From a virus, in the IMG/VR virus record IMGVR_UViG_3300044756_000026, positions 1 through 53,671 of that record: DNA of 53,671 nt; one strand, 5' to 3'. Positions 10,662 to 53,671 of the stretch are shown piece by piece. The first letter of the stretch is position 1. Each line of letters opens with the position of its first letter. The position numbers and the translations under genes were made by a program. The notes beneath the pieces are model-generated. The model saw only the letters and a list, made by a program, of their open reading frames with translations. It was not told the DNA's origin and did no database searches.

Positions 10662-11044
10662 CGCGTAAGCACGAGAGTGCGCTGCGTTGGGATCTCCTGT
10701 CGATGGGGCTGAGCCTCGAAACTGCTAGTCTGCCGTGGGGCGATTGGTGGGCTCTTGTCTCAGCCTCACCGCCGGGGTCTGCAATGTATCGCGCGGTGAA
10801 CCAAGAATATGGTCTTACCGAACATCTCCTGTGTACGATGCTAGATCGGTTGAACACGCAGATATGGATGAAAACGAAGGATGCTCACGCAGATCCTCCA
10901 CGTAATCGCCCTGAGCGTGTTCCTCGCCCCGGTGTGGAGAAGCGGCCAGATGTGCCATACAATGGCATGGGGCTACCACCGAACGTCGTTTCCATAGAAG
11001 AATTCATACGCCGACAGGCAGAAGAGCGGGAACGCAATGGCTGA
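10209..11044 (+). CDS. Tail assembly chaperone G-T, -1 frameshift product
   Basis: The reading frame at 10640-11044 lies -1 relative to the G chaperone, overlaps its end, and has no well-placed start with a ribosome-binding site. Translation slipping back by one base near 10634-10640 would fuse about 143 residues of G to about 135 residues ending in an Arg/Glu-rich helix. The T part contains LRWDLLSMGLS and WWALVSASPPGSA, resembling T-domain patterns. Expression at a few percent of G is known for this pair in many siphoviruses. The exact slip position is inferred. Confidence 0.72.
10634..10640 (+). promoter_or_regulatory. Putative -1 slippery site GGAAAAA
   Basis: In the G frame the bases read G-GAA-AAA followed by TCT. 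Slipping back one base gives GGA-AAA-ATC and enters the T frame, which is open to 11044. The A-site codon re-pairs perfectly (AAA on AAA); the P-site codon does so imperfectly. It is the only homopolymeric run in the overlap and lies 18 nt before the G stop codon. Confidence 0.6.
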
Positions 11045-14000
11045 ACTTGCACAGGAATGGATCTCCATCCTTCCTGATGCCTCGAAGCTAGCAGCGGGTA
11101 TTAATGCAGCGGTTACTAAGGCGAAAGTCAAGCCGTTAGTTATTCCTGTTAAATTCGAGACCAAACAACTCAACGAGGCGATACAGAAACTTAAGCCGAA
11201 AGCGATTAAGCTTCCGGTAGCGATTGATCGTACGAGCCTCAACAAGTCCATTACTGACGTCTCCAAGACAAAGCTCAAGCCACTCAAGCTTGAGATTCAG
11301 GTAGACAAAACTGCTGTCAATCGTGGTATCGCCGAGGCTGAAAAGACTAAGCCCAAAGCGATCAAAGTACCAGTTGAACTTCAAACGCCCGTCACTCCGT
11401 TAACATCAGCGCTCAAAGGCACTGCGCAAACTGCTGGTCAGCAATACGGCCAGAGTATGTTGACTGGGGTAAATCAAGCAATAGCATCTAGTCCTGTTGC
11501 TCAGGCTGCTGGTACAACGGCGGGTAAGAAAGCTGCTGCCGGTGTCGCGGCTGGTGTGGCTTCTGGTGCTTCTCAGACGCAATCAAGCTTCGCTAAGATG
11601 TTCAATATCTCCAGTCACGTTAGCAGGATGCAGAGCAGTTTGCAGAATGCAACGTCTAGCTGGAACACAATGAGTCAAGCAGCGGATAAGACTCATGGGC
11701 GTATGGTCGGCGCTATTCAACAGATGATTCGTTACTCTTTGATCTTTACTGCTGGTGGTGCTATCTTCGGTGGCATGAAGTATCTCGTTACCACAGGCAT
11801 GGAGTTTGATGATACGCTGCATCTGCTTGGTGCTACGACTAAGGCTAACAATGATCAGATGACCGCGATGAGCGATACTGCTCGCGCGCTCGGTCGTGAC
11901 ATGTCGCTTCCTGCGACGTCCGCGAACGATGCTGCAGCGGCGATGCTCGCAATGACGCAGGCAGGATTCAATGTAGACCAAGCTATGTCTGCTGCACGCG
12001 GATCGCTACAACTTGCAACTGCAACTAATATTGAAGCATCTGATTCTGGCAAGATCGTTGCTACCACACTGAACTCATTCCATCGTCCTGCTGAAGATGC
12101 CACTAAAGCAGTTGACTTGCTGACCAACGTATTCCTGAAGTCTGGCGCACCGATCAACGACATTGCCCTCGCATTCCAACAGGCTGCCACAGTTGGCGGC
12201 ATCTTCGGTCTGTCAATGGAAGATACTGCTGCGACAATGGCGCTGCTAGCGAAGAACGGTATCCGTGGTTCTGACGCTGGCACGCTGCTCAAAACAATGC
12301 TCGCCGGTTTGACCGATCAAGGCAAGCCTGCTCAAGAAGCAATCCACGAACTCGGCCTGACAGTCAACGATGCTAACGGCAACTTCGTCGGTATGCAGTC
12401 GATCATGGAACAGTTGAATGCTGCACGTGGTCGTATGACACAAGCTGATTACGCTGGTGCATCTGCCACACTGTTCGGTACAGACGCAATCCGTATTGCT
12501 GGTGTGGCTGCTACTGGTACTGCTGACGCATGGAAAGAAATGCGCGATGCAGTCGTCGAGCAAGGCACTGCTCAGCGTGTGGCTGAATCTCGTATGCAAG
12601 GCTTGCCCGGTGCAGTCGAGAAGGTCAAGAACTCATTCGAAGGGCTGTCGCTTGCGATCTACGATATGGTCAAGGGTCCGCTGACGACGATTGCCACTGG
12701 TGTGGCTGAAGGGTTGAGCGGATTCACTGAGTGGATCACCGGCAGTAGCACAAGTCTCAAGGTGTTCGGCGGCGTGCTTGAATATGTCGCCATCACTGTT
12801 GGTCTCTGCGCTGTTGCATTCGGCGCATGGAAGATTGCGACATTGGCACAGACGGCTGCGATGTGGCTGTTGGATGCTGCGTTGAATGCGAACCCAATCT
12901 CGCTTATCATCATTGCCATTGCTGCTGTGATCGCTGCATTGGTTCTGTTGTATCAGCACAATGAAGGATTCCGCAACTTCGTCAATGCGCTATGGGAAGG
13001 CATCAAGGTAGCCTTCGATAAGATCATGGTAGCAGTGCATTGGCTGGTGGAGCAGTGGAATGCTGCATGGCCTACGATCAAGACAGTACTGGAAACTGTC
13101 TGGAACGTTATTAAAACTATCTTTACCGCCATCGGCGAAACTTGCACATGGTTGTGGCAGAACATCATCGTGCCCGCATTCGAAGGCATCAGTAATGCCA
13201 TCAGCGTAGCATGGGATATCATCAAGCTTCCGTTCCAGCTGTTCGAAGCGGCGATGAGAGTTCTCGGACCGATTGCAATGGCGCTTTGGGATGTGTATAT
13301 TCAGCCAGCATGGGAGTTCATTAAGAATGCTATCTCTGCTGCTTGGGACTTCATGTCGCCGATCTTTGATACCATCGGTGCAGCATTCAGCAAGCTAGGC
13401 GATGTTGCTAAAGCTGGATTCAATGCCTTCGGTGATGTTGCCAAGACAGTCGGTAGTGCTGTCAAGGACGTGTGGGATGGGCTGTGGAACATACTGAAGA
13501 TTCCACTGCACGGTCTTGGTAACTTCCTCGTTGGTATTCCTGACACTGTTCTCGGCGTTAAGATTGATTTCATTTCTGACGTCCATGACTGGGGTAAGAC
13601 GCTCCAAGGGTTGCGCACCGGCGGTATCCTGCGAGGGCCGGGTACTGGCACGTCAGACTCGATCCTAGCGACCAATAGCAGTGGTGTACCGACGGCGCGT
13701 GTATCGAACGGCGAAGGTGTTGTGCCGGCAGCACCACTGAAGACTCCAATGGGTATGGCGCTATTCAATACACTGCTTGGTATGGCTGGTGGCGGACGCT
13801 TGCCGACAGGTGCGATCATTTGGCCACCACAACCTGTTGGTCCAGTTGACAAGACACGTCCGGGTGGTGTGCCTGATCTTACTGGTCATCTGCCTGGTCC
13901 ACACCTACCTGATTGGAGCGGCACATTCGGTCCACCTGATGCTGGATGGTGGGATCGACCGATCAATCCTGATGATATTTTGTTCCCAGAACTTCAACCG

Positions 14001-30374: not shown

Positions 30375-31335
30375 GCTTATATTCTCGCCTTCTCACGTTT
30401 TCCGCGTTGCGGTCCAGCATCTCGGCTAGACATAGCACACGATACGAGCACCAGTCGCAAGCACGCTCGGGTGCGCGTTCGACAGTATCTCTGTCTTCGA
30501 AATCATACTCTGCATATCTTTCCGCTGTACGGGCCAGTTCCGCGATTACTCGATCAATCGTATCATTACGTTTCTCAAAGACGTCACGGCGAAATATGGG
30601 GGAGCTCTGAACTGCGTCCGGATCGTATCGCGCATGGTACAAATCATCCAGCAATTCAGCATACTCACCTAAGTCTTTGCCCTCTGCCTTTAAACCTTTA
30701 GTCGCAGTGGGCCAGTCAGTAAACGGTTGTTTCTTGTATAGACGACCAGTCTTTGTGAACTTAAGTGGTTGAGGTGCCTTAGCGATAACGTAGTTCCAGA
30801 TGTGACCAAGGACCTCAATTCCGTTCTCGCGACAGGCCCAAATATAAAACGTGCTTTGTGGATCGCGGTAGCGGTAGTCCATAGATGGTAAGGTTCGTCC
30901 ATGGGTCTTATGATCGACAACCCAGATTCCGAATTGATCTTCCACGATGAGATCGCACTTCCCCTGGTATGGCAAACCGTTAGGAAGTGTCGCTTCGATC
31001 TTGTGCTCAACTTCAAGAATGCGCCACGTTGTATCGTTAGAGTAATGCCACTTGTAAGCCTTGAACAAAGCTGACATGTCGTGGGGCAGATCGCCGAGCG
31101 CATCTTTCTCCTCATCCCATAGTTCGGCGTATTCAGCGCAGAGTCGTTTGTGCTCTGCTGTTACTGACTCACCTTTGTAGTGAGCTTCGAGCAGCGAGTG
31201 GAACCAGCTTCCTCGCTTCAGTGGTTTGCGCTTCTCCTTTCGCGGTACGAGTTCATCGTGGAATTTATACATCGCTTGCCGTGGACACGTACGAAATGTC
31301 TTGAGCAAGGAATTAGTTATGACTAGATCTGACAT
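30340..31335 (-). CDS. Cas4/RecB-like exonuclease with Fe-S cysteines
   Basis: A 331-residue PD-(D/E)xK nuclease. Cys17 (TCPRQ) and a C-terminal trio (CDWCSYRVLC near residues 295-304) give the four-cysteine iron-sulfur signature of Cas4/AddB-type enzymes. The active site is GKCDLIVED followed by WVVDHKTHG near 125-145 (Asp ... Asp-x-Lys). Such enzymes resect DNA ends; beside Sak4 and SSB candidates it probably serves phage recombination. No CRISPR genes are present, so a spacer-acquisition role is not indicated. Confidence 0.82.
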   Translation of the reverse strand: MSDLVITNSLLKTFRTCPRQAMYKFHDELVPRKEKRKPLKRGSWFHSLLEAHYKGESVTAEHKRLCAEYAELWDEEKDALGDLPHDMSALFKAYKWHYSNDTTWRILEVEHKIEATLPNGLPYQGKCDLIVEDQFGIWVVDHKTHGRTLPSMDYRYRDPQSTFYIWACRENGIEVLGHIWNYVIAKAPQPLKFTKTGRLYKKQPFTDWPTATKGLKAEGKDLGEYAELLDDLYHARYDPDAVQSSPIFRRDVFEKRNDTIDRVIAELARTAERYAEYDFEDRDTVERAPERACDWCSYRVLCLAEMLDRNAENVRRREYKHGDPLEYYGPK

Positions 31336-33709
31336 TCAACCATTCCTTCATAGTTCGACGAGAGCCAAATGCTTCTTCTGGCACCGGCGTGTTGGATCCC
31401 CAGTGTTTTCCGATTTGGAGATCGGCAACGAGGGGGATGGAGAGTTCGTAATCGAAGAGTTTCTTGAGTGGTGGATTCTCCATGGTGGTTTTGATGAGGG
31501 GGAGAACGTCAGGCAGTTCGTCATTTGGTACTTCGAAATTGATTGCGTCATGCACAGTACCAATTGGAATTGCTTTAAATCCACGTCGGCGAAACTCTCG
31601 GTCGAGAAGGACAAGAGAGAGAAGGCACATGTCAGATGCCATTGCTTGGACTGGCGAGTTGATAGCCTGCCGTTCAGCTTCATTCACGACCCCCTGCTCA
31701 TGAGACGCAATGTCGGGCAAGTGCCGGATGCGTCCCAGTGGTGTTTGCACTCGTTGGAATTTATGCACCAGTCTACGCTGACGACCATGCCAAGGAAGTA
31801 AATCAGGAAATTGATCGAAGAACGCCTTTCTCGCATGCTGTGCTTCAATCTCCGTAACCGTGAGTTCATACTTCTCCCAAGCAGTTTCAATGAATTTTCT
31901 CCATCCCATGCCATATAAAAATCCGAAGTTGACTGCTTTAGCTTTCTTGCGTTCCTCCTTAGTTATCTGACTGGTGGGCTTTCCGGTAAGCTGGACGGCC
32001 ATCGCCATGTGGATGTCTTCACCAAGTGCATACAACTTGCGCATGGTTCGCTCACCGGATAACTCCGCGGCGATGCGGAGCTCGATCTGAGAGTAGTCAC
32101 TTTCCACAAATGTCCAACCCGGCGGGGCTGAAAAAATACCTCGAACGAGCGGCTCTCGAGGCACCTGCTGGATATTGATGCCGCGCATTGTGGATGCTCG
32201 CGAACCAGTGACTTTGTCAGAATCGGCTTTCCCAGATGAGAGACGACCAGTAACAGTTCCAGCCAACTTGAAGGTCGTATGAAGACGACTATCCTCAGTG
32301 ACCAGTGCTTGATATGGATTGAAGAAACTACTTTCATACTTCTGCCACCGCACCCGTTCCAGTAGTAGCGGAATCACTCGATGTGAATCCTTGATGTGTG
32401 AAAGTGTCTGCTCTGACACTGATGGTCCGATCTTACCAACCTTCGTAATGGGCACCTGGAGATAATCATACAACCACCAGCGAAGGAAGTTCGAAGGATT
32501 GAAGTTGACGCTCTCAGCATATTCTTCTGGCACGTCGCGCATCAATCGACGATGTATGCGTGCAAGTTGTTTACGGACGTAATCAGCGCCTTGTATCAAC
32601 GCCTCTTGATCAACGTACGCACCGTGTCGTTCGATATGTACGAGAGATTGCGATGCTGGCATGATCAGCTTGTAGAACAGTCGTGCCACACGAGGATCCT
32701 CTTCGATCTGTTCCTTGAACAATCGGTATAGTCGCATCGTGTGCCAGGTATCGAGCGCGTTGTATCGCAGGATTTCTTTCAGTGGATACTGCTCGTACCA
32801 CGGTGGCTGGCCTTTGCCATTGTTGATCTTTATGTCCCACGGTTTTGCATCGAGAAGAAAGGTTGCAAGAGGCTTGAGGCCTTTCGGTCGATTCTCGTCG
32901 AGTATATGTGCCGCCAGCATGGTGTCGAAGTTGACGGGAACCGGACAGCCCACCTGACACATCCAACGACAATCAAACTTTGCATTGTGAGCGATACGCG
33001 TGGGGACCTTGCACATGGCCGTTGATATACGATGAAGAGGTTCGTACCATCCGTCAGCCCAGTGATAGCCTGGATGGGCGACGGGTAATACCCATGTGCG
33101 CATCTGTTTACCTTCGAGCAATGTAACTGCCAGCGAGACAACAAAAGCGCCGGGTACCAGTTCGTCAAAACCTGAAGTCTCCAAATCCCAGGCGCAGGCC
33201 TCAGCGCTGGAAAGCGCAGCGAGGAGTTCGTCAACTCTCTCTTGTGTATGGACGACACGTACAGTCTTGGGCTCATCTTCCTCTACCTCAACATCGTAGA
33301 CAGTTCGATACATGGCAGCAATGTCGCCTTGCAGCATGATCGCTTGGTGTGGGTTACGATCAACAGCGCCGAGTGCAATCGTCGGCATGACAGGAATGCC
33401 ATCATAGTCACCGACGTGTCCGCGATGTTTCATGATGCCTGAGTGTCCGAGCACAGTGAACAGTGCCTCGTTGCCGAGAGTGATGATGCCATCTACTGGT
33501 CGATGCTGTGCAAGCCTGTCGTAGAATCCAGCGCGTGCTTCTTTGAGGTCGGCCTTTGATTCGGTGATCGAGTCGTCATGTTCCGACCACACCCCCATGA
33601 ATATCAGCTTCGTATCCTTGGGGAATCTCTGACTCAACAACCTCTGTTGCAGTGTCGTCCGCGTCGTCCCGCGCGCTACGTATTTCGTCAAGATAATTAT
33701 CGTTGTCAT
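31313..33709 (-). CDS. DNA polymerase I (family A) with UDG-like N-terminus
   Basis: A 798-residue replicative polymerase. Residues 1-135 resemble a uracil-DNA-glycosylase-like fold (GIITLGNEALFTVLG, then GIMKHRG). Residues about 170-350 are a 3'-5' exonuclease (WDLETSGFD with Asp175 and Glu177, HNAKFD, YNALDT). Residues about 380-790 are the polymerase: ESDYSQIELR (motif A, near 537), KKAKAVNFGFLYG (motif B) and TVHDAINFE (motif C, near 719). The start overlaps the dCMP deaminase by 134 nt, so an internal start remains possible. Confidence 0.93.
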   Translation of the reverse strand: MTTIIILTKYVARGTTRTTLQQRLLSQRFPKDTKLIFMGVWSEHDDSITESKADLKEARAGFYDRLAQHRPVDGIITLGNEALFTVLGHSGIMKHRGHVGDYDGIPVMPTIALGAVDRNPHQAIMLQGDIAAMYRTVYDVEVEEDEPKTVRVVHTQERVDELLAALSSAEACAWDLETSGFDELVPGAFVVSLAVTLLEGKQMRTWVLPVAHPGYHWADGWYEPLHRISTAMCKVPTRIAHNAKFDCRWMCQVGCPVPVNFDTMLAAHILDENRPKGLKPLATFLLDAKPWDIKINNGKGQPPWYEQYPLKEILRYNALDTWHTMRLYRLFKEQIEEDPRVARLFYKLIMPASQSLVHIERHGAYVDQEALIQGADYVRKQLARIHRRLMRDVPEEYAESVNFNPSNFLRWWLYDYLQVPITKVGKIGPSVSEQTLSHIKDSHRVIPLLLERVRWQKYESSFFNPYQALVTEDSRLHTTFKLAGTVTGRLSSGKADSDKVTGSRASTMRGINIQQVPREPLVRGIFSAPPGWTFVESDYSQIELRIAAELSGERTMRKLYALGEDIHMAMAVQLTGKPTSQITKEERKKAKAVNFGFLYGMGWRKFIETAWEKYELTVTEIEAQHARKAFFDQFPDLLPWHGRQRRLVHKFQRVQTPLGRIRHLPDIASHEQGVVNEAERQAINSPVQAMASDMCLLSLVLLDREFRRRGFKAIPIGTVHDAINFEVPNDELPDVLPLIKTTMENPPLKKLFDYELSIPLVADLQIGKHWGSNTPVPEEAFGSRRTMKEWLNVRSSHN

Positions 33710-34130
33710 CGCCCTTTTTCCCTATCACTAAATTATACACACCCACACCTCCTCCATGCAAAAGGACGAGACCGTCACGATTGCGATACTCTCGAACGTA
33801 CGTGACCTTCGATACGCCGGCATTCAGCATGAGTCCGGCACAGTAATAACATGGCGAGTCGGTGCATATGAACTCGCATCCGTTGAGTGCGACACCGGTA
33901 CGTGCTGCCCACACGATTGCGTTGGCTTCAGCGTGTATCGCTCGAGCACAAATCTCTGATGGCGGGTGCGTGCAATGAGCCATGTGAATCGGCACACCGT
34001 TGTATCCCATGCTCAAGATGCGCCCGTCGTGTACCGCTAGCGCGCCTACTCGTAATCGCGTGCATGTCGAACGTGCGGCGATAACGAAGGCAATCTCCAT
34101 CAGCGTGTCTAGGCGTGTGGGACGAGTCAT
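33576..34130 (-). CDS. dCMP deaminase
   Basis: A 184-residue zinc deaminase that converts dCMP to dUMP. The zinc site is complete: HAEAN (His66, Glu68) and SPCYYCAG (Cys94, Cys97). The fold follows the family up to about residue 125; the C-terminal 50 residues are acidic and low complexity and overlap the polymerase gene. The ATG at 34130 overlaps the upstream stop codon (ATGA) and has GGAG 8 nt ahead, better than the upstream TTG at 34142. It feeds dUMP to the adjacent thymidylate-synthase-like enzymes. Confidence 0.9.
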   Translation of the reverse strand: MTRPTRLDTLMEIAFVIAARSTCTRLRVGALAVHDGRILSMGYNGVPIHMAHCTHPPSEICARAIHAEANAIVWAARTGVALNGCEFICTDSPCYYCAGLMLNAGVSKVTYVREYRNRDGLVLLHGGGVGVYNLVIGKKGDDNDNYLDEIRSARDDADDTATEVVESEIPQGYEADIHGGVVGT

Positions 34131-34855
34131 TGAAATCTCCAAACGTCGTTGGTGAACAGGTGCAAGTTTGAGATGAACACTGTAAGGTTACCTACGATTG
34201 GCCACTCCCCAGTACAAGTCTTTGACTGTACCCACTGAAGTAATCTTCCGGTGAGATAGACATCGTTAAGGAAATGCCTCGTGAGGTCACACGAGCGAAT
34301 GAAATAGTTGCAGTCCAATAACCCGCCGTTCCTGATGAAATGGTAACCGAGCGAACAGGGCACTCGTTGTCCGTGCCGAGTTCCCGTGTCTTCAGGAAAA
34401 TAAACGGGAAGGTAAGCCTGGCGGGTCCAGGTATCAGCAGCGAGCAGCGCGACAACATCTCTAAGGTTTCCTCCGACACTGGCATCTGGCCAATATCGTT
34501 CGGGGTAGGTGTGGTCAAACTTTTCCTTCTTCCCTTCGCGCATGAATCGGTCAGCGTTCTTCTTACTGTGCCACGGCCAGATGTCATACGATGGCGGCGG
34601 ATTCAACGGTATGCCTGACACACGTTCAGAGAAGTGAATGTCCGCCCAAGGAAGATCCGGTGAGCACATCTCCTGCCATGATTTGACTAACGGTGGCACG
34701 GAACATGTCAATATGACATTCGCCAGTTCGTGTGCCGGGCTTGGTGCCGCAGTAGACTGCCACGAATTCCGATCCACGGGTGTATGCTGGAGCAACTGCG
34801 TCACTAAATGGCTCCGGTAATGTGCTGGACATACAGAGGTAGATGTCTGGAACAT
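34127..34855 (-). CDS. Thymidylate-synthase-family protein 1
   Basis: A 242-residue enzyme of the thymidylate synthase / pyrimidine hydroxymethylase fold. It retains the catalytic cysteine (VPCSLGYHF, Cys167), the phosphate-binding IRSCDL (Arg187-Asp190) and the base-contacting pair in FLNDVY (Asn197-Asp198). It would methylate or hydroxymethylate dUMP or dCMP at C5. A second, more diverged relative lies directly upstream (34,855-35,757). Which pyrimidine and which one-carbon product it makes cannot be read by eye; the Asn-Asp pair needs comparison with known hydroxymethylases. Confidence 0.82.
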   Translation of the reverse strand: MFQTSTSVCPAHYRSHLVTQLLQHTPVDRNSWQSTAAPSPAHELANVILTCSVPPLVKSWQEMCSPDLPWADIHFSERVSGIPLNPPPSYDIWPWHSKKNADRFMREGKKEKFDHTYPERYWPDASVGGNLRDVVALLAADTWTRQAYLPVYFPEDTGTRHGQRVPCSLGYHFIRNGGLLDCNYFIRSCDLTRHFLNDVYLTGRLLQWVQSKTCTGEWPIVGNLTVFISNLHLFTNDVWRFQ

Positions 34856-35757
34856 TAGTCCGGTATGCCAATCTTCTCGAGCCCCAGATCCACAACAGGA
34901 GTCGACGGAAGAGGCGGATAAGCACGATTGTCGGGTGTCTCAAATCGCCGGGCGAACTCGTGACCGTAACGTTCCGTACACCATCGTTTTCTGGGACGCT
35001 GGTAGGAGCGGTAGGGCGACATGCCAGAATAAAGTAACCCCGTCTCATTCATCTCTCGCCATCTCGTGTATTCGCGGTAAGCTCGTTGTATGCCTGGATA
35101 TTCGGCAAGTTGATTATCTTGTTCAAGAGTGCGCGCGATACCAACAAACCGTCTCGTTTCCCGCTTGTCTCCGAGGGGATAGGCAATTGTACGGAATCTG
35201 TGATACTGGACGGTCTCGATGAACCAGGTAAATTGGAAGTTGTCAACAGACAGTCCGAGACGCTTTGCGGCATGACGTGTAAGGTGATAAGCAACTGCCA
35301 TATCGAGAGCAGATAGATAGCCCATGTAGGAGGCCCGGGAATGCAGAAGTACGTGCGGGTGGGGGACGACCGAAAGTGATAGGCTAAGCATACACGATCC
35401 AAGGTTTCGGACACGGGCTTTTCCGACCCCTCGAGGCTGAACAAGATTGGTCCGATACACCATCCGATCAGGGTTTTTACCAGCACCTCGTCGTTCAACA
35501 AGCTCAAGCCAATCATTGACTGAGTCGCCATGTAGATATTGTCGTACCATTGTTGTCCACCGCGAGCGGGGAATCCAGAGTCTTCGAATATCGTGGTCAA
35601 ATTCCATTCGCTCCGCGGTTCCATATACGTGCTCCAATACCACATCAGTGTTCGTGATAGCATCGTAGGAATCACGGTGCCCGTACAGTACTTTGTCGCA
35701 GATAGCATCGTGCAGCTCATGCATTGTCGCTGCTTGGATGAGGTGTGGTTCATGCAT
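34855..35757 (-). CDS. Thymidylate-synthase-like protein 2 (diverged)
   Basis: A 300-residue protein that appears to share the TS fold. NLGSCMLSLSLSV supplies a cysteine (Cys122) 19 residues before an arginine (SRASYMGYLSALD, Arg141). These match the Cys-to-Arg spacing of 20 in the neighbouring enzyme and an Asp at the equivalent last position, but the usual Asp of R-S-x-D is replaced. FIETVQYHRFR resembles the TS segment that precedes the second nucleotide-binding histidine/tyrosine. It may act on a modified or unusual nucleotide. Overlaps of TGATG and TAATG show tight coupling. Confidence 0.6.
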   Translation of the reverse strand: MHEPHLIQAATMHELHDAICDKVLYGHRDSYDAITNTDVVLEHVYGTAERMEFDHDIRRLWIPRSRWTTMVRQYLHGDSVNDWLELVERRGAGKNPDRMVYRTNLVQPRGVGKARVRNLGSCMLSLSLSVVPHPHVLLHSRASYMGYLSALDMAVAYHLTRHAAKRLGLSVDNFQFTWFIETVQYHRFRTIAYPLGDKRETRRFVGIARTLEQDNQLAEYPGIQRAYREYTRWREMNETGLLYSGMSPYRSYQRPRKRWCTERYGHEFARRFETPDNRAYPPLPSTPVVDLGLEKIGIPD

Positions 35758-36413
35758 CAGTAGCCCACGTGCTGGCGTTGTGCATTGATGAACGCCTTTC
35801 TGAAGTACGAGGTAAATACCTCGAGCGGTTCGACGCCGGCGATGAGATGCAGTTCAATGAAGAAATGCCACACGTCAGCCAGTTCTTCTACGAATGCTTC
35901 ACGGTCTGTTTCTACATGCGTCTGCTTCCATGGTTTGTTCTTGAGGTGATTGATGGCCTCGTATAACTCCTCAACCGTGTAGCCTGCAAATTCTCGAATC
36001 GCTGCCTGTACGCGGGGCGTGTCGATGTTACCCCGTTCGTGCGTCTGGATATTCGCGGCCGGATTGATTTCCGCATAGTTCGCCATGTGACGAAATTGTT
36101 GGGCGAACATAGTGCAAAGGATATCGGGAACTGAGAGATCAGATGTGGTTCCGGAACCATCATCCCAGATTTCATCAAAGTCATCCGTACTCGGCGTCCA
36201 CGGTATGTTGAGCCGTACAGAATTTGGCGGTCGAACTCCCTCGCCATTGCCATAGCCTGGCTCTCTTGCACTGCTCTTAGGAAGGCGAGCGTCGTTCGCT
36301 CGAACTCCTCCAACGCTTCCGTGTTGATCCGGATCGTCACTGCTATTTGACGTGGCACCATCCTTAATTTCCTTGGGGATTTGTTGTCCTGGTGAATGTT
36401 CTTTGGTGGTCAT
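35757..36413 (-). CDS. MazG / dUTPase-2-like nucleotide pyrophosphohydrolase
   Basis: A 218-residue protein. The C-terminal 125 residues match the all-alpha NTP pyrophosphatase layout: YEAINHLKNKPW after EEL, then EELADVWHFF with the E-E-x-x-D metal-binding pattern, then a helix IAGVEPLEVFTSYF. This superfamily includes dimeric dUTPases and MazG. The N-terminal 90 residues are low-complexity and probably disordered. The ATG at 36413 with GGAAAG upstream is preferred to one at 36440. Beside dCMP deaminase and two TS-like enzymes it probably hydrolyses dUTP or another dNTP. Confidence 0.75.
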   Translation of the reverse strand: MTTKEHSPGQQIPKEIKDGATSNSSDDPDQHGSVGGVRANDARLPKSSAREPGYGNGEGVRPPNSVRLNIPWTPSTDDFDEIWDDGSGTTSDLSVPDILCTMFAQQFRHMANYAEINPAANIQTHERGNIDTPRVQAAIREFAGYTVEELYEAINHLKNKPWKQTHVETDREAFVEELADVWHFFIELHLIAGVEPLEVFTSYFRKAFINAQRQHVGY

Positions 36414-36951
36414 GCTTCTGGGCTTTCCAATACTTTCCATCTGTGGCTGTAAGCTGATCTGCTAAACTCAAGTCACCCGCTCGCCCGTGTGTGTAATCAT
36501 ACGTGACTGCTGCGCCACGCCAGAACAAGCGTTGCATGAGGTAACCCTCATATATCTTGTCGATGTATTGTACCACCCCTTCCATCTGTTGTTCTTGTTC
36601 TATGTTATGCTTAATCTTTTCAAGTGGCGGTAGACACCAGATGACCAGCGAGTTGTTGGCGATGCGCTGTCGGATGACTGCCATGCTCGGCTTGAGAAAG
36701 TCGGTGTTCACGTGACGTGTGGGAATGGTGCTGCCGTACACGTACTCCGAGATGATCGGGTGTCGATCATGTACGCAGTGTGTGGGATGATCACGGACAC
36801 TCCTATACACTCGCTCGGCAATGTCTGGGTACGGTCCTTCAACGCTGCGCGTGAAACGTTCGTGGATTTCAAGACCTGGATACAGATGCTGGAGCAGACT
36901 GATGAGCGTAGTCTTTCCTGCTCCGTCCGGACCTTCAACAATAATGCTCAT
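36364..36951 (-). CDS. P-loop deoxynucleoside monophosphate kinase
   Basis: A 195-residue kinase resembling thymidylate kinase. The P-loop is GPDGAGKT at residues 7-14, HDRHPIISE matches the DR-x motif of dNMP kinases, and a lid-like charged helix follows. It would phosphorylate dTMP or a modified dNMP produced by the TS-like neighbours; a DNA-level kinase acting on hydroxymethyluracil bases is a known alternative for P-loop proteins in such clusters. It overlaps the helicase stop codon by ATGA and the next gene by 50 nt. Confidence 0.8.
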   Translation of the reverse strand: MSIIVEGPDGAGKTTLISLLQHLYPGLEIHERFTRSVEGPYPDIAERVYRSVRDHPTHCVHDRHPIISEYVYGSTIPTRHVNTDFLKPSMAVIRQRIANNSLVIWCLPPLEKIKHNIEQEQQMEGVVQYIDKIYEGYLMQRLFWRGAAVTYDYTHGRAGDLSLADQLTATDGKYWKAQKHDHQRTFTRTTNPQGN

Positions 36952-41471: not shown

Positions 41472-41693
41472 GTGATCAAAGTTTATACCAAACCGGAATG
41501 TGTGCAATGCAAGTGGACTAAGGTATTTCTAGAGAAGATGGGCCTCGAGTATGAAGAGCATGATGTGACGCAAGATGAAGAGGCCGCAAAGGAGGTGAGG
41601 AGAAGAGGATTCGATACCTTACCCGTCGTCGTTACCGCGCAAGATGTTTGGGCCGGCTTCAAGATTGACAAATTAAAAGACTTGAAGCGTTGA
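41472..41693 (+). CDS. Glutaredoxin / NrdH-like redox protein
   Basis: A 73-residue thioredoxin-fold protein with a CVQC active site at residues 10-13, a cis-proline segment (TLPVVV near 50) and a short C-terminal helix; length and spacing match NrdH redoxins. NrdH normally reduces ribonucleotide reductase, but no reductase gene is in the window, so it would serve the host enzyme or another phage thiol protein. AAGGGTGATAAGG precedes the ATG. Confidence 0.88.
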   Translation: MIKVYTKPECVQCKWTKVFLEKMGLEYEEHDVTQDEEAAKEVRRRGFDTLPVVVTAQDVWAGFKIDKLKDLKR

Positions 41694-52569: not shown

Positions 52570-52628
52570 CGTGCGCAACGAACCACACGCAAGCCGCGCG
52601 GGCGGTTGAACGCGAACGGAGCCAGACG

Positions 52629-52967
52629 TGTGACGTGGATCACATGCGGCCCTCGGCCAGCGGCGGCAAGGTCGGGGCTCCGCGGCGGGAGGTTTTCAGA
52701 CGGCGGGCGGTGGCCACACAGCGGCGAGCGGAGCGGCGGGGGGAGCTGCGCGGCGGCGGCGGAAAACGGCCAGAGTGAGGACGCGAGCTTCTCACCACAG
52801 GCCATTTAACGGAGGGGCGCGGATTCGGGGGGTCGAAAAAGGGGCGCGCGCGGGCGGGTGTGACGTGGGTCACAGGGCTGTGATGTGGGTCACACGCGCG
52901 GATGGAATGTGACGTGGGGCACATCGGGGGCGCATTGTGACGTGGGGCACATGTGACGTAGCACACA
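52629..52967. promoter_or_regulatory. Cluster of six CRP/GlxR-like sites
   Basis: Three perfect TGTGA-N6-TCACA sites begin at 52629, 52859 and 52879, two with GCACA in the right half at 52908 and 52936, and one degenerate site at 52952. The N6 spacer is also conserved (CGTGG followed by A or G in four). The region 52,570-52,961 has no gene; it is very GC-rich and also holds repeat copy D at 52,775-52,803. Confidence 0.75.
52775..52803 (+). repeat. Dispersed repeat copy D
   Basis: GTGAGGACGCGAGCTTCTC followed by ACCACAGGCC; 21 of 25 bases from GGACG onward match copy B at 47,312-47,336. Non-coding context. Confidence 0.65.
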
Positions 52968-53001
52968 CATGCGAATGTCGTTGTGCGCGTGCATATCATG
53001 A

Positions 53002-53007
53002 TATGAT
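53002..53007 (+). promoter_or_regulatory. -10 box, promoter family copy 10
   Basis: TATGAT, six bases, then ATG 53014 followed by CAACGCACACACACACG, the family leader motif. The -35 would be TCGTTG (52978-52983, 18 bp). It lies just downstream of the last CRP-like site. Confidence 0.7.
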
Positions 53008-53013
53008 CGTGTC

Positions 53014-53085
53014 ATGCAACGCACACACACACGACGCGCGCGTTGCATCGTCGTGCGCACACACGCGCGACGCGTCACGAAATGA
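53014..53085 (+). CDS. Leaderless Arg/His/Thr-rich micro-ORF
   Basis: A 23-residue frame beginning at the predicted first transcribed base (MQRTHTRRARCIVVRTHARR). Its stop codon lies one base before the next start, so it could deliver ribosomes to a downstream gene that cannot have a Shine-Dalgarno sequence. It may be a leader peptide or simply the 5' untranslated region. Confidence 0.45.
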   Translation: MQRTHTRRARCIVVRTHARRVTK

Positions 53086-53086
53086 A

Positions 53087-53485
53087 ATGACACACGAAAT
53101 GACAAACGCAAAATCGACAAACGCACGCACGACACGCACGCGCACGACGCGCAAATCGAACGTCGTCGCAACGCGTGACGCACGCGCAAACGCAATCGCG
53201 TCGCGTGTCGCGTACATCATGCGCGTTGACGCATCAACGATTGACGATGCGTTGATCGCACACGTTGACGCGCAATTGACGCAACGACGCGTTGATGCGC
53301 ACGTGATCAACGACGCGCAATTGCGCGACATGATCATTGCGTTCACGAACAACGACAACGTTCGACGCGTGTACGAAAATCACGATGCGTGTTACGCGTC
53401 GAACGCACACGACAAATCGAAAATCGCACGCGCGAAATGTCGTCGTGAACGTCGTGCGCGCATCGTGAACGACGCGACGAAATGA
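53087..53485 (+). CDS. Hypothetical basic protein lacking Gly, Pro and Trp
   Basis: A 132-residue, Arg/Ala/Asn/Asp/Thr-rich protein; an N-terminal Thr/Arg region (residues 8-30), then helices (RVAYIMRVDASTIDDALIAH, QLRDMIIAFTNNDNVRRVY) and a basic end (KIARAKCRRERRARI). Codons are limited by the dinucleotide rule: only AAA for Lys, CAA for Gln, GAA for Glu, TTG for Leu, CGN for Arg, TCN for Ser. The start is ATG 53087 or 53099. The helical pattern suggests a folded, possibly nucleic-acid-binding protein. No family recognised. Confidence 0.65.
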   Translation: MTHEMTNAKSTNARTTRTRTTRKSNVVATRDARANAIASRVAYIMRVDASTIDDALIAHVDAQLTQRRVDAHVINDAQLRDMIIAFTNNDNVRRVYENHDACYASNAHDKSKIARAKCRRERRARIVNDATK

Positions 53486-53565
53486 TCGACGAATTTGTCG
53501 ACACGCGCGACGACGTGATCGACATGTTGATGCGCATACGCGACGCGCACAACGACGACGAATAA
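53482..53565 (+). CDS. Acidic micro-ORF at right end
   Basis: A 27-residue acidic peptide (DEFVDTRDDVIDMLMRIRDA) coupled by ATGA to the previous gene and obeying the same dinucleotide rule. It ends 28 nt before the terminator stem. Its acidity complements the basic protein upstream, as in some small partner pairs; that is only a suggestion. Confidence 0.5.
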   Translation: MIDEFVDTRDDVIDMLMRIRDAHNDDE

Positions 53566-53593
53566 CGTTCGCGCACAACACAATTGAATAACA

Positions 53594-53634
53594 CGTAACG
53601 CGCATGACGAATTATGTTGTGCGCGTTACGTTTT
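53594..53634 (+). terminator. Rho-independent terminator at right end
   Basis: CGTAACGCGCA (53594-53604) pairs perfectly with TGCGCGTTACG (53620-53630), followed by TTTT and further T-rich sequence. The right arm can also pair with an upstream arm at 53570-53585 to form an alternative hairpin. Confidence 0.88.
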
Positions 53635-53671
53635 CATTTGTGTGTATGTCAAGACATTACGTCAATCGAAT

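Follow-up and report, generated by a model that had tools for sequence, protein, structure and literature searches.

A six-gene module with two thymidylate synthase-fold proteins

The IMG/VR virus record IMGVR_UViG_3300044756_000026, analysed over its whole length of 53,671 bases (the window), carries a six-gene module on its minus strand. The genes are transcribed in the order kinase, pyrophosphatase, companion, TS1, deoxycytidine monophosphate (dCMP) deaminase and family A DNA polymerase (PolA) (Table 1). At its centre are two proteins, TS1 and the protein called here its companion, that both belong to the thymidylate synthase (TS) superfamily. An earlier note, made from the window's letters without database searches, had grouped the pair with a dCMP deaminase, a MazG-like protein and a P-loop kinase within positions 34127-36951; all three enzymes are present (PF00383, PF08761 and TIGR00041), with the deaminase lying outside that span. 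A tRNA search of the window returned none, and a megablast search with the module region matched no phage record. Judged by the module genes, the closest named relatives are the Mycobacterium phages NoShow, Muddy and JacoRen57, together with Gordonia phages. Cozz, Emalyn and GTE2 are described as members of cluster CT (PMC5559632).

Table 1. Genes of the module, codons aligned with TS catalytic positions, and canonical ThyA genes in other carriers of TS1 and companion (coordinates refer to the window unless a record is named)
Feature	Coordinates	Strand	Basis or proposed role
P-loop nucleotide kinase	36364..36951	-	PHROG 761 3.5e-19; TIGR00041 1.6e-4; proposed kinase for modified dCMP
All-alpha nucleoside triphosphate pyrophosphatase (MazG/dUTPase-2 like)	35757..36440	-	PF08761 2e-6; PHROG 12184 3.9e-61; proposed dCTPase/dUTPase; start codon uncertain, coordinates of the longest open reading frame, which overlaps the kinase gene
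Companion, second TS-fold protein, 300 residues	34855..35757	-	PHROG 13667 "unknown function"
TS1, cytosine-type TS-superfamily enzyme (predicted), 242 residues	34127..34855	-	PHROG 160 4.5e-25
dCMP deaminase	33576..34142	-	PF00383 6e-19; PHROG 174 5.2e-44
Family A DNA polymerase (PolA), module end	31313..33709	-	PF00476 2.9e-79
Companion Tyr74 = TS Tyr94 position	35536..35538	-	assigned by spacing to Cys; codon checked
Companion Cys122 = TS nucleophile Cys146	35392..35394	-	hhalign alignment
Companion Arg141 = TS Arg166	35335..35337	-	conservation and alignment
Companion Asp152 = TS position 177 (Asn in ThyA)	35302..35304	-	gap-free, 11 residues past Arg141
TS1 Cys167 = TS Cys146 / T4 Cys148	34355..34357	-	75/75; hhalign mapping
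TS1 Asp190 = TS Asp169 / T4 Asp171	34286..34288	-	Asp 73, Glu 2 of 75
TS1 Asp198 = TS position 177 / T4 Asp179, cytosine determinant	34262..34264	-	75/75; hhalign mapping
Canonical ThyA (Asn177), IMG/VR 3300013105_000028 (L042)	55237-56019		carrier of TS1 and companion
Canonical ThyA (Asn177), locus L015	12771-13574		carrier of TS1 and companion

TS1 has the fold of the TS superfamily

TS1 has the C167, IRSCD (residues 186-190) and N197-D198 that the earlier note had read in it. Its match to PF00303 scores 16.4 bits, under the Pfam cut-off of 24.3, and its PHROG match is to a family named "thymidylate synthase". Membership of that family (PHROG 160) was considered as a sign of a T4 or RB69 type and rejected, because T4 gp42 and canonical ThyA match it too. 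A ten-sequence TS1 profile placed Lactobacillus casei TS N229D at the top of the PDB, followed by other TS, MilA, 9iqu/9iqc and T4 dCMP hydroxymethylase; with the 75-row alignment of TS1 relatives as query, MilA came first. The AlphaFold model (predicted local distance difference test, pLDDT, 89.3) has the TS fold and reaches a Z of about 19 to 9iqu (19.1) and to many TS, all of which are tied, since Z differences below 1 were counted as ties. In the hhalign map onto the T4 enzyme, C167 corresponds to C148, R145 to R123, Q146 to R124, D190 to D171, D198 to D179, H232 to H216, F234 to Y218 and Y117 to Y96.

In the tree, the TS1 sequences form one group of their own (Shimodaira-Hasegawa-like approximate likelihood ratio, SH-aLRT, 99), apart from T4, RB69 and ThyA, and the reference branches are very long. 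TS1 sits on a long branch, without safe placement beside T4, RB69 or ThyA, and is at most a candidate member of the T4 dCMP hydroxymethylase family. The deep TS1 set used with hhalign also contained a row for the ThyA of phage Huwbert, so the strong score of that protein is circular.

The companion is an overlooked TS relative

The companion is called "hypothetical protein" in the phage records listed, and sequence searches do not reveal its kinship: PF00303 matched none of 56 members at E 0.01, and a companion sequence profile found no TS in the PDB. Its AlphaFold model (pLDDT 94.7) does. Foldseek gave 9iqu (2.7e-7), 9iqc and MilA as best matches, and VIA-align gave Z 16.6 to the dCMP hydroxylase 9iqu (root-mean-square deviation 3.6, 188 residues aligned), 15.3 to MilA and about 11 to ThyA chains; the rows shown were all TS-fold chains, with Z from 10.9 to 16.6. 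The two adjacent TS-fold proteins of the earlier note, both on the minus strand, are thus borne out by the structural models it had called for.

Across 100 distinct companion sequences (open reading frames shorter than 480 residues), the residues conserved in at least 90 are Y74 (99), G120 (92), C122 (100), P134 (94), R141 (99), D152 (99) and R254 (96). In an alignment of 56 members (A3; frames of up to 450 residues, from loci other than L048), Tyr74, Cys122, Arg141 and Asp152 are each present in 56/56. By hhalign, C122, R141 and D152 are in register with TS Cys146, Arg166 and position 177. Y74 is matched to Tyr94 by its distance from the Cys, 48 residues in the companion and 52 in Escherichia coli TS. 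The reading that the second protein keeps the Cys and its spacing to Arg (C122, R141) and has lost the aspartate of R-S-x-D also held: the motif reads R-A-S-Y. Because Z reaches 16.6 and four of the most conserved residues fall on TS catalytic positions, the likeness to TS is not a matter of chance, and the companion is an overlooked, strongly diverged TS relative. It is hardly a pseudoenzyme, since the Cys is kept in 100/100. Its residues suggest that the cytosine-binding and covalent-adduct functions are kept and that the cofactor side has changed.

The record PMBT14 has two matches to the companion hidden Markov model. The reading frame of the second one overlaps the deaminase gene; this second match is part of a 76-row set and lies outside A3 and the 100-sequence set.

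Residues that distinguish cytosine from uracil

Asp179 is reported as the cytosine determinant of the T4 enzyme (PMC6400193). At the equivalent TS position 177, the account in PMC5175136 gives Asp for T4 dCMP hydroxymethylase, MilA and BcmA and Asn for TS and the SPO1 deoxyuridine monophosphate (dUMP) hydroxymethylase. The MetaGPA study reports positions 177 and 147 as the best two for separating the TS of modified-cytosine contigs from those of unmodified contigs, and names, among the partners of TS in the modified set, domains of the dCMP deaminase, MafB19 and PRA-PH families (PMC8670742). TS1 has Asp at position 177 in 75/75 relatives and Thr (58) or Ser (17) at position 147 in all 75, so that neither the ThyA pair (Asn177 with His147) nor the Asn177 of an SPO1-type dUMP hydroxymethylase occurs among them. 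The companion likewise has Asp at position 177, in 56/56 members of A3 and 99/100 of the larger set.

The alignment was controlled with proteins from other phages. Position 177 is Asp in T4 gp42, RB69, PTm5, P10VF, MW202657, GodonK and Xp15 and Asn in Huwbert ThyA; for a Kuttervirus TS-like protein, MAFFT gives Asn after inserting one residue, and hhalign places Ile in that column. Position 147 is Thr in T4, RB69, P10VF, MW202657, GodonK and Xp15, Ile in PTm5, Asn in the Kuttervirus protein and His in ThyA. Genome content points the same way: a canonical ThyA with Asn177 stands alongside TS1 in 2 of the 12 records searched (Huwbert and IMG/VR 3300013105_000028), and because of this separate ThyA, TS1 is not simply the source of deoxythymidine monophosphate (dTMP) in those phages. 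Since literature, alignment control and genome content agree, cytosine is the substrate argued for TS1.

Partner enzymes and distribution

The T4 dCTPase gp56 and the window pyrophosphatase match the same three PHROGs (173, 12184 and 18650), and a dCTPase role therefore fits the pyrophosphatase. PHROG 761 is common to the window kinase, RB69 ORF045 and the GodonK kinase, with T4 gp1 in PHROG 139; ORF045 lies three genes from the 5-hydroxy-dCMP synthase ORF048, whose full-length sequence is matched by PDB 9iqc. No glycosyltransferase was seen among the window proteins scanned, a scan that covered part of the open reading frames, and no carbamoyltransferase in 13 records tested. In the Brevundimonas phage Strzyga, an unannotated dCMP deaminase lies at 10723-11181, between TS1 and PolA, where the annotation shows nothing but a hypothetical gene of 150 bases. 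An NrdH-like glutaredoxin (PF00462, 2e-15) is encoded at 41472-41693 of the window, away from the module.

The genes travel together. The companion occurs, paired with TS1, in at least 85 phage records, with equal genus counts for TS1 and companion queries; the genera named are Gordonia (68), Mycobacterium (9), Streptomyces (4) and Microbacterium (2). At 60 loci found by the companion alone (IMG/VR and two contigs of metagenome-assembled genomes, MAGs), many of them on the same contigs as the TS1-found loci, TS1 stands beside it in 59, the exception being a contig edge, and the kinase is present in 57, the pyrophosphatase in 58, the deaminase in 56 and PolA in 55. A search by TS1 alone gave 80 loci, the top-ranking ones among 447 relatives and therefore leaning to close ones. 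The companion is present in 60 of them, and of those 60, the deaminase in 59 and PolA likewise in 59. TS1 and the companion are neighbouring genes, often overlapping by 4 bases; the 95 loci compared for this include the window, and some contigs are represented more than once. The same gene order is shared by Brevundimonas, Serratia, Pseudomonas, Desulfofustis, Streptomyces and Microbacterium phages, where companion identity goes down to 12-14%, and in a collection of cellular genomes the companion appears at two loci, both MAG contigs with the whole module. Carriers of the gene set are found among both actinobacterial and proteobacterial phages; Muddy, a phage used in therapy, is one of them.

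Of the TS1 sequences without the companion, 13 are in the tree and 11 of these fall together; the 20 companion-less loci have few partners (kinase 2, pyrophosphatase 2, deaminase 1, PolA 1). In 18 records of these loci, some of them fragments, the remaining sequence did not contain a companion either. When TS1 accompanied by the companion was compared with TS1 lacking it, none of the 25 most different positions was a known catalytic one. At two loci (L033 and L049), TS1 lies near the kinase and pyrophosphatase families, and companion, deaminase and PolA were not found in the stretch examined.

A putative pathway to modified cytosine

The six-gene module probably makes a C5-modified cytosine nucleotide for phage DNA, not thymine. 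The modified-pyrimidine pathway suggested in the earlier note is supported in this form; its likeness to SPO1 and hypermodified thymine is not. The SPO1 system also has kinase and pyrophosphatase partners, and its dUMP hydroxymethylase is of the TS superfamily; unlike both window proteins, which have Asp177, it is reported to have Asn there (PMC5175136).

By analogy, the module would resemble the dCMP modification pathway of T4, extended by one more TS-fold protein. The pyrophosphatase, judged by its family, would remove dCTP and dUTP and yield dCMP. The Cys of TS1 would then add to C6 of dCMP for modification at C5, with Asp198 selecting cytosine. The most likely product is 5-hydroxymethyl-dCMP made from methylene-folate, as in T4, the main alternative being a flavin-dependent conversion to 5-hydroxy-dCMP of the RB69 type; hydroxymethylation is thus the likelier predicted activity of TS1. 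The companion would most likely carry out an additional step, with either the same dCMP or its modified form as substrate. The kinase, with host enzymes, may raise the product to the triphosphate for incorporation by PolA, and the deaminase could feed dTMP synthesis, as in T4, or act on modified dCMP. Escape from host nucleases would be the likely benefit. More tentatively, and with somewhat less than even confidence, the companion may represent a new class of TS-fold enzyme, one that would apply Cys-C6 adduct chemistry to a second nucleotide-level step on (hydroxymethyl-)dCMP, absent from known phage pathways, and so provide a new cytosine before replication without a glycosyltransferase.

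Comparison with characterized systems shows how far the analogy reaches. The T4 module, whose deaminase is Cd, shares with the window the gp42 Cys, Asp171, Asp179 and Thr149 equivalents of TS1, a gp56-like pyrophosphatase and a deaminase. The differences are that TS1 forms a separate clade and is without a clear Glu60 and one phosphate Arg, that the kinases belong to different PHROGs, that the window adds the companion, and that no glucosyltransferase was seen in the window proteins scanned. In the MetaGPA/Xp15 cytosine modification systems, a TS carrying Asp177 and Thr147 likewise neighbours a dCMP deaminase gene; what sets them apart is their carbamoyltransferase. MilA, a cytidine monophosphate hydroxymethylase, shares the TS fold and Asp177, and is the second-best structural match of the companion and the best sequence match of the 75-row TS1 profile; unlike the activity proposed here, it is described as acting on ribonucleotides in antibiotic biosynthesis (PMC5175136).

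Several observations weigh against the modified-cytosine pathway or parts of it. Almost every carrier has a deaminase, which would suit a pathway using dUMP as well. TS1 has no Glu at the position of the catalytic Glu58 (T4 Glu60) in either N-terminal register tried: the column holds His74 by an S-G anchor and other residues by hhalign, E43 or E77 could serve, and the register is uncertain. It also has Gln146 where T4 and TS have a second phosphate Arg (Arg145 is kept) and Phe for Tyr209, and these three departures weaken the folate reading of TS1. The companion is without Asp169 (mostly Tyr), a clear Glu58, His207 (the nearest column is mostly Gln) and Arg126/127, and its link to TS by sequence alone is weak (hhalign P 0.0007-0.004, probability 8-26%). 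In the stretch examined, 20/80 TS1-found loci are without the companion, 2 of them at contig edges. In a mirror-tree comparison of 86 loci, the companion correlates with PolA at r 0.84 and with TS1 at 0.38, and the partial TS1-companion correlation given PolA is 0.08, so that a special interface between the two proteins is unsupported. CpG ratios of the loci are near 1 and uninformative, and a literature search on modified DNA in these phages found nothing usable.

Three other explanations have been considered. The first sees in the companion no separate enzyme but a non-redundant partner subunit of TS1, needed to complete or to regulate the TS1 active site. The adjacent, often overlapping genes and the co-occurrence in 59/60 loci are what such a heteromer would show, and TS enzymes are reported to share active sites across the dimer (PMC6400193, PMC5175136). 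A mere subunit would not need the nucleophile and Asp177, which are near-invariant in the companion; the companion has no Arg126/127 to donate and no extra co-evolution with TS1, and 18 TS1 loci away from contig edges do without it. This explanation is rather unlikely.

The second, which we also consider unlikely and slightly more so, assigns TS1 or the companion to the flavin-dependent dCMP 5-hydroxylases, with RB69 ORF048 (9iqc/9iqu) as the model. 5-Hydroxy-dCMP synthases are reported within the TS superfamily (PMC13390438). The RB69/HY126 synthase has the TS fold, Asp177 and Thr147; the structure closest to the companion is 9iqu (16.6 against 15.3 for MilA), which is also in the top tie for TS1 (19.1); a clear Glu58 is missing from TS1 as it is from RB69, PTm5 and P10VF; and the kinase is of one family with that encoded near the RB69 hydroxylase gene. 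Against this stands position 169, which is described as holding the pterin in TS (PMC6400193). It is Asn in RB69 ORF048, PTm5 and P10VF, which belong with the flavin-linked synthase; that Asn marks this family is our inference from the three sequences. In the companion the position is mostly Tyr; TS1 keeps the Asp, or in two relatives Glu, which argues for folate use. TS1 also falls outside the RB69, PTm5 and P10VF group in the tree, and its Z values are ties. In the RB69 stretch around ORF048, no companion-like gene is annotated.

The third takes TS1 for a thymidylate synthase of unusual type, or for a dUMP hydroxymethylase, in an operon supplying dTMP or hydroxymethyl-dUMP. It draws on a classic dTMP supply set (dCMP deaminase, dUTPase-like protein, a kinase named "thymidylate kinase"), on the "thymine synthesis" of the SEA-PHAGES annotation and the Azira paper, which gives the operon that name (PMC10353413), and on the possibility of a hydroxymethyluracil product despite Asp177 if the deaminase acts on hydroxymethyl-dCMP, and is improbable given Asp177 and Thr/Ser147 throughout TS1, where uracil enzymes have Asn177, and the separate canonical ThyA of two carriers.

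If modified cytosine is indeed the product, the restriction sensitivity, sequencing and defence evasion of the carrier phages would need re-reading, and an uncharacterized TS-fold enzyme would be directly testable in laboratory phages on Mycobacterium smegmatis or Gordonia terrae.

Composition at the right end of the window

The odd composition at the right end of the window, which the earlier note had speculatively related to modified DNA, is real. Positions 52961-53652 hold 692 bases without any AG, GG, CC or CT dinucleotide at 54% G+C, although base composition predicts about 186 of these dinucleotides. In the other loci compared (about 1.7 megabases including the window), no such run exceeds 94 bases. 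The run covers most of an open reading frame at 52937-53485 (plus strand) that has no sequence match in phages or IMG/VR. At the right end of JacoRen57, 796 bases lack CC and CT, 423 of them also AG and GG, over gene 74; the end of NoShow has no such stretch, and both phages carry the TS1-companion pair. Directly ahead of the odd right end of the window, at 52626-52951, lie five 19-base direct repeats (TGTGACGTGGGTCACA-like).

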